A DNA stretch of 64,000 nucleotides from Natrinema ejinorense (GTDB taxonomy: Archaea > Halobacteriota > Halobacteria > Halobacteriales > Natrialbaceae): the NCBI RefSeq assembly GCF_002494345.1, contig NZ_NXNI01000001.1, positions 682,001-746,000 of the forward strand, in the 5' to 3' direction. Made by a program: the position numbers and the translations under genes. Shown one piece after another: positions 10,005-14,023 of this stretch; position 1 is the stretch's first letter, and every line of letters begins with the position of its first letter. The notes under the pieces were generated by a model that saw only the letters and a program-made list of their open reading frames with translations, did no database searches and was not told the DNA's origin.

Positions 10005-11036
10005 TCACCCCAGATCCTCGTCCCGCTGGGACTTCCGGAGGATGAACGGCCCCATCGCGAGCGTTCGCTTCGCGACGGTCACGACCCGGAGGACGTAGAC
10101 GGTGAAGACGACGAACGGCGTGATACCGACGATGAACCCCGTGCTCGTCACCCAGACGAGGTTGTCGACGCCAAGCGTCGTGCCGGGAAACGTGCTGGCA
10201 TCGACGTACATCAGCATGATTCCCGTCAACAAGAGGGCAGGTATCGACGCGTACAGCAACGCCCGTGAGAGATTGATCAGTTCCCACTGGAAGTACAGCG
10301 TCTTGAAGTGCTCCCGAGCGGGGCCGAAGAGCTTCAGGAGCGAAATCATCTCGTCGATCTCTTCGTCGGCGTCGGCCGACAGTTCGTCGTCGTGATCGGC
10401 ACGGAGCTTGCGAGCGTCGTAGATCTTTCGGGAGTAGTTGAATTTGAGCGCGTTCCAGATCACCTCGAACGTGCCGAACTGGGCGCCTTCGAGGTCTTTC
10501 TTGACGCTCCGAGCGTTTTCGGTGATGTCGTCGACGTAGCTGTCGACTTTCCCCTGGAGGTCGTCGCTGTGGCCGGGCTCGGCCGCTATCGCCGACTCGA
10601 ATTCGTTCGCTTCCTCCTGGATGCCGTCGACGAGTTCGTAGAGGAAGGCGGCGGGTTCGGGCGGCGTCACGTCCTCCTCGAGTTTCCCTTCCAGATCCTG
10701 GCGAAACTCCATCGCCGCTTCCATCCGTTCGCGCTGGTCGCCGACCGCGCCGAGTTCCTGGGAGAGCACCAGCTGGTTGATCGTGACGACGATCGACGTT
10801 CCCGTGATGACCGCGCCGATAAAGGCCGAGAAGATCCAGAAGGTCCCGTTGTTCGACGCGACGATCACGCGAAGCGGGGTGAGCCCGACCTGACTGAGGC
10901 CGACGAGAACGACGAACACGACGACGAGTACGATCCCCGTCAACGCCCAGCGGTTTATCCGAAGCAGGAGATACAGCCGCGGGCCGGCAAGCCGTCCGCC
11001 CCGGTTCTCGTCGGCGTCCGAATCCGAGATATCCAT
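10005..11036 (-). CDS. Four-helix haloarchaeal membrane protein, paralog 1
   Basis: I do not recognise a named family for this 343-residue protein. Two membrane helices lie near residues 28-52 and 65-90. A long soluble helical region (about 95-235) follows, then two further helices near 245-268 and 285-310, and a basic amphipathic tail. Shared signatures with its two neighbours are NQLVLSQELGAVGDQRERM after helix 2, TPPEPAAFLYELV, GPAREHFKTLYFQWELI before helix 3, and RVVTVAKRTLAMGPF after helix 4. The plan of paired helices around a cytosolic helical domain suggests a channel or sensor, but this is only inference. It is divergent from paralog 2 with 147 bases between. Confidence 0.8.
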   Translation of the reverse strand: MDISDSDADENRGGRLAGPRLYLLLRINRWALTGIVLVVVFVVLVGLSQVGLTPLRVIVASNNGTFWIFSAFIGAVITGTSIVVTINQLVLSQELGAVGDQRERMEAAMEFRQDLEGKLEEDVTPPEPAAFLYELVDGIQEEANEFESAIAAEPGHSDDLQGKVDSYVDDITENARSVKKDLEGAQFGTFEVIWNALKFNYSRKIYDARKLRADHDDELSADADEEIDEMISLLKLFGPAREHFKTLYFQWELINLSRALLYASIPALLLTGIMLMYVDASTFPGTTLGVDNLVWVTSTGFIVGITPFVVFTVYVLRVVTVAKRTLAMGPFILRKSQRDEDLG

Positions 11037-11183
11037 TCGGCGATCCGAACCGACCACGACGGTGGACAAAAGCGTCGGGCCGGGAGACGACGGGTCGGTA
11101 ACGGTCCGGTCTCGAACGGTGCCCGCGTCCGGTCTCGTGCGAACGACGGAAACGTTTGTCCGAGCGCTCGTGATAGCAGCGGT

Positions 11184-12236
11184 ATGAGCGACCGTAGTGG
11201 GTCTGCGAGCGACGAGACGGCCAATACGATGGCGGATCGCGTTCACGGTGGTCGTCCAGTGCTGTGGTTTCTCGTCAAGGGGAACCGAATTCTCGTCGCC
11301 GGCACGATGCTCGTCGTCGCCTACGTCGTCCTCATCGGCCTCGGCCAGTTCGGCCCCGGTTCGATCGCGAAGCTGTTCGAACCCGACCCGGTCTTCGCAC
11401 TGTTTACGCCGATCATCATCGGGATCATCATCGGCGTCAGTCTCGTGTTGACGTTCAATCAGCTCGTACTCTCCGCAGAACTCGGTCCGATCGGCGACCA
11501 GCGCGAACGGATGACCGACGCGCTCGACTTTCGCCGGGACGCCGAAGCTGCCATCGACCGAAACACGAGCCCGCCGGAGCCCTCCATCTTTCTCCGGGGC
11601 CTCGTCGAATCGACCGAGGAACGGGGGCGGGCCCTCCTCGAGTTGCTCGAGTCCGACCCGGAGATCGAGGAGCGCGCTCGCGAGGACGTCCGCGAGTACG
11701 CCGCGGGTCTCGTGGCGGACGCCGAACGCGTCGCGGCCGACCTCGAGGGCCAGCAGTTCGGCCGGTTCGAGGTCGTCCAGGCCGCCCTCGAGTACAACTA
11801 CTCGTGGAAGATCTACACCGGTCGCCGCGTGCGAAACCGACACGACGAGACGCTGCCGGCGGCCGTCCTCGAGCGACTCGAGGAACTGATCGGGATCCTC
11901 GAGTTCTTCGGACCGGCCCGCGAGCACTTCAAGACGTTGTACTTCCGGTGGGAAATCATCACCATCTCGCGGGCGCTGGCGTATATCGCGTTGCCCGCGC
12001 TCTCGGTCGCTGCGTACATGATCCTGATCTTCGAGACCGGCGATGTCGCCGGGACGACCGCGGGGTTCGACCACGGGCTGTTGGTCGTCGGCCTCGGCTT
12101 CGCAGTCGGTGTCACGCCCTTCGCGATCTTCCTGTCGTACATCCTTCGTATCGTGACCGTCGCGAAGTGGACGCTCGCGATCGGGCCGTTCGTCCTCCGG
12201 GAGACCGACCGCGGGGCCGACGTCGAGTGGGAGTAA
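11184..12236 (+). CDS. Four-helix haloarchaeal membrane protein, paralog 2
   Basis: This 350-residue paralog of the flanking proteins carries NQLVLSAELGPIGDQRERM, SPPEPSIFLRGLV, EGQQFGRFEVV, GPAREHFKTLYFRWEII and RIVTVAKWTLAIGPFVLRE at the same relative positions. Four membrane helices are predicted by eye. It is closer to paralog 1 than to paralog 3. ATG 11184 is used; a second Met at 11229 is possible. The TAA stop (12234-12236) directly abuts the TAG of the convergent paralog 3 gene, with no base between, so transcription of one must run into the other. Confidence 0.8.
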   Translation: MSDRSGSASDETANTMADRVHGGRPVLWFLVKGNRILVAGTMLVVAYVVLIGLGQFGPGSIAKLFEPDPVFALFTPIIIGIIIGVSLVLTFNQLVLSAELGPIGDQRERMTDALDFRRDAEAAIDRNTSPPEPSIFLRGLVESTEERGRALLELLESDPEIEERAREDVREYAAGLVADAERVAADLEGQQFGRFEVVQAALEYNYSWKIYTGRRVRNRHDETLPAAVLERLEELIGILEFFGPAREHFKTLYFRWEIITISRALAYIALPALSVAAYMILIFETGDVAGTTAGFDHGLLVVGLGFAVGVTPFAIFLSYILRIVTVAKWTLAIGPFVLRETDRGADVEWE

Positions 12237-13286
12237 CTACCCGTCTTCCCCATAGGTCACGTCGAACGGCCCTTCGTCGGGTTCTTTCTGGTGCACCATC
12301 GGGCCGACCGACGCGGTTCGGCGCGTAACGGTCGCGGTTCGAAGGATGTAGGAGACGAGGAGCGCAAAGGGTGTGAGGACGACCACGATCAGGACGCTCA
12401 CGACGTAGGGCAGCACGGCAGCGCTGACGCTCGCTCCAGTGACGTCGGCGTACAGGAGGCCGACGAGGATCGCCGACAGGATCGACGGCACGCCACAGTA
12501 GATCGTCAACTGCGAGAATCGGGTGAGCTCCCGCTGCAGGTAGGTCGTCTTGAACTGCTCTCGAGCCACGCTGAACAGTTTCAGGGAGTCGACCAGTTCG
12601 TCGAGCCGTTCGGTAGCGGTCGGAGACAGCGCGTCGGCGTCCTCGCCGCGGAGATGCGTGCCGACGTACAAGTGCCAGGACTCGTCGTACGTGATCGCCG
12701 CCGAAACGGCGGTAAACGTGTCGAAATCGGATTGCTCGATTCGGTCCTCGATCCGATCCGTTCGCTCTTGGACGCCGTTCGTGTACCGAACGACCGTTTC
12801 GCGGACCTCCTCGTCGTGATCCGCAACGGCGTCGGCGAGCGCGGCGGCGTCGTGATGGATCGACTCGACGATCAGCTCGAGTACTCGCGTCGGCGACGCC
12901 GGGCTCGCGGGAACGGCGGCGGCGTCGGCCACGTCCTGGCGGAATTCGATGACTTCCTCGAGTTGATCGCGAGCCTTGCCGGCCGCAGCGAACTCCTGGG
13001 AGAGAATGAGCTGGTTGACCGAGACGACGAGCGTCACGAGCGAAAACGTCCCCGCGATCATGCCGCTTGCTACCCGCGTTACGGAGTTCGGGTTGGCGAA
13101 GTTGATGACGCCGAGTTCGTAGAGTCCGATCACCAGCACCAAAACGAGGCCCGAGAGGGCCCCGGCGACACCTAACCGATTCCCTTTGACCAGCACCCAC
13201 TCATGGAACCGCGTCAGCAACCCGACCTGGCCGCCGATATCGGCACCGTAGGACTCGAGCGTCTCGTCGCTCTCGGAGGTCCCCAT
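12237..13286 (-). CDS. Four-helix haloarchaeal membrane protein, paralog 3
   Basis: This 349-residue protein is the most divergent of the three paralogs. It keeps LVKGNRLGVAGAL at helix 1, SVNQLILSQEFAAAGKARDQ after helix 2, FSVAREQFKTTYLQREL before helix 3 and RTATVTRRTASVGPMVHQ at the end, where the other two have GPAREHFKTLYF and MGPF. The soluble middle (about 100-240) is acidic and helical. Function is unknown. ATG 13286 is preferred over an upstream in-frame start at 13340, which would add 18 residues. Confidence 0.78.
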   Translation of the reverse strand: MGTSESDETLESYGADIGGQVGLLTRFHEWVLVKGNRLGVAGALSGLVLVLVIGLYELGVINFANPNSVTRVASGMIAGTFSLVTLVVSVNQLILSQEFAAAGKARDQLEEVIEFRQDVADAAAVPASPASPTRVLELIVESIHHDAAALADAVADHDEEVRETVVRYTNGVQERTDRIEDRIEQSDFDTFTAVSAAITYDESWHLYVGTHLRGEDADALSPTATERLDELVDSLKLFSVAREQFKTTYLQRELTRFSQLTIYCGVPSILSAILVGLLYADVTGASVSAAVLPYVVSVLIVVVLTPFALLVSYILRTATVTRRTASVGPMVHQKEPDEGPFDVTYGEDG

Positions 13287-13513: not shown

Positions 13514-14023
13514 ATGACCCGTTCGGAACCGACGAGCCGACGGCGAGTGCTCGCGTCGGTGGGGTCGGGGATCGCAGCCGCGGCCGCCGGCTGTCTCGGC
13601 GGGGGCGGGCTCGACGGCCAGCCGGCCTACGAGGACGGAAACGTCGGCGACGTAAACGCCAGCAACGTCTCCAGCCGGTCGGCGACCCAGCTCTCGGCCG
13701 CCTCGGCACTCGCCCAGCAGGAACCCACTAACTCGGTGACGCCTCTAGATCCGCTCGAGTTGGTCGAACACGAGTTCGTCGTCGAAGACGGCTACCTCGG
13801 CTCGACGGTACAGGGGATCGTCGCGAATACCGGCCGGAATCGGATCCAGACCGTCGAAGTACGGACCCGTATCTACAACCGTTCGGGGAACGTGCTCGGC
13901 CGCTATTTCGCCAGTACCGGCGACCTCGATGGGGGGTCGTCGTGGGAGTTCCAGGTCGTCGTCCTCGAGGCCCCATCGGACGTTGCCGACTACGATATCA
14001 CCGTTCTGGGAACCCCGTCGTGA
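13514..14023 (+). CDS. Tat-exported lipoprotein with FxLYD-like domain
   Basis: This 169-residue protein starts with a twin-arginine-type signal (TSRRRVLASVGSG) and a lipobox AAAAAGC, with the cysteine near residue 28. It is probably lipid-anchored outside the membrane. A Gly/Asn/Ser/Gln linker (about 30-80) is followed by a beta-rich domain with EFVVEDGYLGSTVQGIVANTG and VRTRIYNRSGNVLG, the pattern of FxLYD domains in haloarchaeal lipoproteins. That domain is thought to be a small immunoglobulin-like fold of unknown ligand. No partner is obvious next to it. Confidence 0.82.
   Translation: MTRSEPTSRRRVLASVGSGIAAAAAGCLGGGGLDGQPAYEDGNVGDVNASNVSSRSATQLSAASALAQQEPTNSVTPLDPLELVEHEFVVEDGYLGSTVQGIVANTGRNRIQTVEVRTRIYNRSGNVLGRYFASTGDLDGGSSWEFQVVVLEAPSDVADYDITVLGTPS

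Follow-up and report, generated by a model that had tools for sequence, protein, structure and literature searches.

A haloarchaeal family of four-helix membrane proteins often encoded beside pspA, and its three-gene array in Natrinema ejinorense

In the sections available of two sources, the membrane partners of the bacterial phage shock protein (Psp) systems are described as encoded beside pspA (PMC9239133, PMC11237479), and Psp networks in archaea are called largely unknown (PMC9239133). In Haloferax volcanii PspA rises under salt stress, and a membrane protein encoded downstream of pspA, Hvo2637, was noted in 2022 and assigned the domains bPH_4 (60% probability) and EphA2_TM (80%) (PMC9239133). 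The available part of PMC11237479 names PspAA and other partners, with no haloarchaeal four-helix partner among them. Here we describe three neighbouring genes, P1, P2 and P3, in a 64,000-nucleotide stretch of the Natrinema ejinorense genome (contig NZ_NXNI01000001.1, positions 682,001 to 746,000; hereafter the window). They encode members of an unnamed family of four-helix membrane proteins that is often found next to pspA in other haloarchaea, and we tentatively favour the reading that its core, pspA-adjacent member acts together with PspA as an anchor or sensor in the membrane. Salt and PspA were reportedly the subject of work by Bidle et al. in 2008.

Three full-length open reading frames span exactly positions 10005-13286 of the window. 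P1 (10005..11036, minus strand, 343 residues) belongs to a clade found in pspA-linked arrays of many Natrialbaceae, P2 (11184..12236, plus strand) is a paralog of 350 residues, and P3 (12237..13286, minus strand, 349 residues) is the most divergent of the three. In the divergent P1-P2 intergenic region (11037..11183, 147 bp) direct reading of the sequence shows T-rich, promoter-like boxes some 30-35 bp before each start, and P2 and P3 are convergent with abutting stop codons (12236 and 12237). Full-length BLASTP comparison gave 44% identity for P1-P2 (E 2e-98), 31% for P1-P3 (E 1e-44) and 33% for P2-P3 (E 4e-46), a likeness far beyond chance by which the three are judged to be full-length paralogs. 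Shared motifs are NQLVLSQE, NQLVLSAE and NQLILSQE (P1, P2 and P3), a second motif that reads GPAREHFKTLYF in P1 and P2 and SVAREQFKTTYL in P3, and a basic tail, RVVTVAK, RIVTVAK and RTATVTR. An earlier interpretation made from the letters of the window (the sequence-only reading) had described three neighbouring paralogs in minus-plus-minus order, with these motifs and this tail, as a local expansion with strong motif conservation, and all of this was borne out. The window genome contains two further full-length members on the same contig and an additional 41-residue match elsewhere (E 7.6e-7). Ahead of their starts the P1 and P2 frames continue uninterrupted for a long way (689 and 642 codons), running through the opposite gene as shadow frames of GC-rich coding DNA.

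The genomic surroundings of the family were compared with neighbour genes called by a codon-position gene caller and by named queries (by open reading frame list for the AT-rich locus L099). Among 100 loci, namely the window and 99 longer loci of 7 to 18 kb (L043-L141; the 42 short loci L001-L042 were excluded), 63 had a PspA/IM30 gene in their flanks. A survey of one genome per genus, made to reduce bias in the choice of loci, covered 77 genera and listed both the family and pspA in 71 of them; the pspA query matched PspA_IM30 of Pfam with E 2.2e-34. A member lay within 6 kb of pspA in at least 47 of these 71 genera, where random placement would predict about 0.55. In at least 40 of the 47 the member followed pspA in the same orientation, and in at least 24 the distance was within 300 bp; by family, this survey showed the link in at least eight of the nine (labels f1-f10) possessing both genes. 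A second sample, to which 14 places from a phylum sample had been added, gave at least 47 of 74 linked within 5 kb. Members are found next to pspA across distant genomes, and this adjacency is real and old, and it is not unique to this gene. The sequence-only reading had recognised the family and its expansion and had missed this neighbourhood, which supplies the best functional lead.

The same adjacency could come from a gene order that has stayed stable with no functional link behind it, in which case the family would be an independent membrane protein, for example of osmotic or lipid-stress housekeeping, in an old, slowly decaying block with pspA, a hydrolase, CTP synthase and guaA. This is quite possible, if on balance doubtful. 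The gene flanking pspA on its other side, an alpha/beta hydrolase, shows linkage to pspA in 59 of 66 genera, above the 47 of 71 for the family, and the gene order may therefore be inherited block synteny; in addition, members have a promoter-like box of their own, and 24 of the 71 genera have no link among the matches listed. On the other hand, pspA and the member stay adjacent in four genera whose hydrolase has moved and in two more that have no hydrolase match, and thrS, which some genera have as the right-hand neighbour, is close to pspA in only 14 of 69. The orientation, with pspA first and on the same strand in at least 40 of the 47, also speaks against this reading.

Besides the closer linkage of the hydrolase, several observations weigh against a role together with PspA. 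In 24 of the 71 genera there is no pspA link among the matches listed, and in the window genome pspA is 404 kb from the array and has other genes beside it. Another branch of the family is coupled to DUF4177-like genes, not to pspA. No homology to PspB, PspC, LiaI-LiaF or Toastrack was found at threshold for 41 members, 94 members or the family consensus (in the multi-member profile searches, cut-offs of the profile families were known for the first member only), the LiaI-LiaF-TM_PspC model matching one member only among the 41, at E 0.031. Phyletic co-occurrence is uninformative since the family and pspA are both near universal: pspA is still present in 16 of 18 genomes without the family, and the family in five of seven without a pspA match. 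Finally, the pspA-adjacent members are probably transcribed on their own and not cotranscribed with pspA, because of a TATA-like AT peak at position -27. In the 193 of 200 distinct members with a usable ATG and flank, this position is A or T in 17 of the 17 that have pspA at most 300 bp upstream, compared with 37% A+T over 60 bases, and a weaker A/T peak lies at the same position in the 176 others. A leaderless haloarchaeal promoter would be expected to have its TATA box near -27. The gaps between pspA and the member measure tens of bp in the tightest cases, and a simple operon with pspA was not adopted, given this peak.

The history of the array was followed in a midpoint-rooted tree of 200 members, in which P1, P2 and P3 fall into separate clades of 35, 16 and 36 members (supports 0.998, 1.0 and 1.0). 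In a common layout P3 is followed by P1 on one strand, and P2 lies between them, convergent to P3. Of the 16 genes in the P2 clade, 15 lie tail-to-tail with a P3, with 0 to 66 bp between the stop codons (seven at 0); the sixteenth, in Halovivax sp. KZCA124 (L063), is a P2 without P3. A conspecific genome (L057) has P3 and P1 and no P2, and 19 of the 77 genus representatives have exactly one member. Co-occurrence of the paralogs is observed, and the dedicated, possibly hetero-oligomeric complex of the three chains proposed in the sequence-only reading is weakly supported: the tail-to-tail pairing speaks for some tie between P2 and P3, and an obligate three-chain complex is weakened by the single-member genera, by L057 and by L063. 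The unnamed four-helix family and its local expansion, the other part of that interpretation, stand. In a genome of the same genus (G118) about 2.5 kb separates the array from pspA. The window array is read as a Natrialbaceae expansion of the pspA-linked locus; since pspA of the window genome is far from the array and has other neighbours, the array has probably been moved. At the pspA locus of the window genome (L143 8642-13631; C1 1098641-1103630) a winged-helix-like gene is still next to pspA, which three other genes separate from the hydrolase.

Hydropathy indicated four membrane helices in each of P1, P2 and P3, two near the N-terminal end and two near the C-terminal end, in agreement with the sequence-only reading and with AlphaFold models of P1 and P3. 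The P1 model, built from a 94-row alignment, had a predicted local distance difference test score (pLDDT) of 83.8 and a predicted template modelling score (pTM) of 0.76, and showed helices at residues 29-49 and 64-94, six helices within 98-235, and long helices at 237-277 and 292-327; the P3 model resembled it (pLDDT 82.4, pTM 0.75). Helices 2 and 3 are thus predicted to be separated by a helical domain of about 140 residues. This middle domain is predicted to be cytosolic because the outer loops have few Lys and Arg residues (family means 0.87 and 0.26), which are commoner beside the inner helix ends. The hydrophobic helices, the positive-inside bias and the models together predict an integral membrane protein with a cytosolic face. 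In 94 members R29, K245, P266, P307, R317 and G329 (P1 numbering) are invariant and E94, R241, T246, Y248 and S257 near-invariant, as is also given for E252. On our reading of the model, the conserved charged residues R29, K245, R317, E94, R241 and E252 would sit near the inner helix ends.

Profile searches gave no name to the family. For P1-P3 every listed Pfam and NCBIfam match was below the curated cut-off and no model covered the proteins, and no convincing match was among those listed for 41 or for 94 members; the best E for the 94 was 5.4e-5 (YtxH, 4 of 94), and 0.0047 in the other profile search. DUF6376, DUF7261, YtxH, apolipoprotein and ThiT gave stray low scores that look like helix or composition matches, and DUF2721 (one of 41 members, E 0.06) was set aside, its best match in the window genome (E 0.03) being at another place and not a member. 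The best hit in a PDB sequence search had E 0.031, with apolipophorin, tropomyosin and designed bundles in the top rows, and the P1 and P3 models had no match at E 0.001 in Foldseek against the PDB; a search of viral structures likewise gave none at E 0.001. No clear match to a characterised family thus emerged from profile search or from Foldseek on the predicted structures, in keeping with the sequence-only reading, and no naming of the family was found in the literature covered, which lay mostly outside subscription journals.

Two readings that start from the helices were considered. In bestrophins two helices are followed by cytosolic helices and two further helices, a layout that the family resembles, and its helices could oligomerise to a bestrophin-like or other pore conducting ions or small solutes, which the cytosolic bundle would gate and for which the paralogs would provide the subunits. 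The pairing of P2 with P3, and the polar and charged residues conserved within and next to the helices, would suit such a channel, which is nevertheless improbable: neither a bestrophin nor another channel was among the listed Pfam matches of the 41 members, the 94 members or the consensus, and 19 of the 77 genera have a single member. For the bestrophin profile in particular, the matches covered were those of the 94 members (E 0.01), of the consensus (E 10) and of 25 of the 36 families listed for the 41 members (E 0.1). Neither P1 nor P3 had a Foldseek match to a bestrophin-like pentameric fold at E 0.001, an absence that is no exclusion. The second reading, a lipid-handling protein with a helix arrangement like that of tweety (TTYH) proteins, is very improbable. 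It is prompted by VIA-align 2, where generic four-helix bundles and TTYH chains rank high for both models: the best TTYH comparison of P3 had Z 13.3 (root-mean-square deviation (rmsd) 11.6 Å, 194 aligned, 9g71) and that of P1 Z 11.6 (rmsd 15.0 Å, 213 aligned, 7rtt). Z ranged over 9.8-13.3 with a very large rmsd, mostly 11-15 Å, and Z under about 13 may reflect only a common helical-bundle arrangement; designed and generic four-helix bundles in fact scored about equally. Foldseek gave E of about 0.3 or worse, and no Tweety sequence match was among those listed for the 41 members, the 94 members or the consensus. The soluble domain of TTYH is extracellular, whereas that of the present family is predicted to be cytosolic.

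A different neighbour marks the branch mentioned above. In the window genome each of the two other full-length members is preceded by a DUF4177-like gene, of 68 or 65 codons, whose end overlaps the start of the member (L043 6255-6461 and 9636-9833; window genome C1 near 1508254 and 1511635). Among 40 further members such a gene immediately preceded the member, on the same strand, in 15 of 20 whose match crossed a stop codon and in 7 of 20 whose match did not, and in many of these pairs stop and start overlap by 4-20 bp; an annotated pair on plasmid pHTUR02 overlaps by 4 bp. The DUF4177 name of these short proteins comes from a sub-threshold Pfam match (E 0.01) and public annotation. The gene and the member are probably a translationally coupled pair, also on haloarchaeal megaplasmids. 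These pairs could mean that the cytosolic domain is a platform for small soluble partners, DUF4177-like in one branch and others elsewhere, with PspA one of several neighbours. Such a platform is improbable: in a first, differently chosen set of 199 members a DUF4177-like gene accompanied only five, and none lies beside P1-P3.

The family occurs in 274 of 292 haloarchaeal genomes surveyed in the class and is almost absent outside haloarchaea. A phylum sample gave matches in 29 of 196 genomes, 28 of them in the same order. A scan of named genomes confirmed 245 relatives from 284 candidate stretches, and the 79 loci kept were all haloarchaeal by name except those of a nanohaloarchaeon (L099) and an 'uncultured archaeon' (L133). 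The sole member outside the order in the phylum sample (L044; G309 C2 322045-323031) is likely a transfer. That of nanohaloarchaeon M3_22 (contig CP046106.1; L099 5965-7008) is 43% identical, adjoins a gene that we take to be msrA-like, has no PspA match within the stretch, and was probably taken from a haloarchaeal host. Relatives were found in 62 records of a plasmid collection, and some members are therefore on megaplasmids; the window's three lie on a 4.0-Mb contig. A mobile element or virus was discarded as their source: the phage collection held no match, and no candidate in viral contigs was confirmed. Members also seem to be lost by decay, given broken, split or partial copies (L096 7290-8277; L103 8794-9051; L062 5055-6185).

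Read as an anchor or sensor working with PspA, the family would form the membrane part of a Psp-type (PspA/IM30) system by which haloarchaea respond to membrane stress. The condition of the bilayer would be sensed by the helices and signalled through the conserved Arg/Lys/Glu girdle to the cytosolic bundle, which in turn would recruit PspA polymers at sites of membrane damage or release them there. From homology, predicted topology and the pspA adjacency of the core member we infer such binding, sensing and regulation. In Natrialbaceae the locus would have been duplicated into P3, P1 and P2, presumably variants with different triggers or partners, and in the window genome the array would have moved away from pspA. 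The broader proposal, that haloarchaea have their own class of partner for PspA (the bacterial-type ESCRT-III), a four-helix sensor-anchor unrelated to PspB/PspC whose Natrialbaceae variants tune one PspA to several membrane stresses, is rather unlikely at present.

Sensing and repair of membrane damage in archaea are poorly known. A nameless family that almost all haloarchaea possess, whose fold is predicted and whose genes recur next to pspA, offers a concrete gene for study in a tractable model archaeon, and if the anchor or sensor reading is true, the P1-P3 array may belong to an archaeal membrane-stress system.

Two other neighbours recur. Divergently adjacent to P3 lies a gene for a twin-arginine-type lipoprotein (13514..14023, plus strand), with an RR motif and an AGC lipobox by eye and a weak, sub-threshold DUF3426-like match at its C-terminus. 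Relatives of it adjoin members in 30 of the 100 loci, mostly in divergent orientation, and it might conceivably be an outside partner of the family members. A gene for an HPP-type (TM_HPP) membrane protein is near members in 23 of the 100 loci, in varying orientation (e.g. L096 3155-3649).

Among known systems, bestrophins share the helix layout with the family, but no sequence or fold match to them was found. TTYH proteins share a loose helix arrangement in VIA-align 2; in contrast, Foldseek was not significant, no sequence match was listed, and their soluble domain is on the opposite side from that predicted here. Hvo2637 is closer in setting, as a membrane protein downstream of pspA, and in one genome (G266, family f4) a member of the present family follows pspA on the same strand after a gap of 122 bp. 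By position only, Hvo2637 may be a family member, although the bPH_4 and EphA2_TM calls given in the available part of its source are not seen in the P1-P3 family. PspB, PspC, LiaI-LiaF-TM and the membrane proteins of Bacillus subtilis pspA-ydjGHI are, in the sections available of the sources, likewise integral membrane proteins encoded beside pspA. The P1-P3 family differs from these bacterial partners in having no homology at threshold to the Pfam Psp families (no PspB, PspC or LiaI-LiaF-TM profile at its curated cut-off was among the listed matches of 41 or 94 members), and in having four helices and a large, predicted cytosolic helical domain, in proteins that are almost only haloarchaeal.

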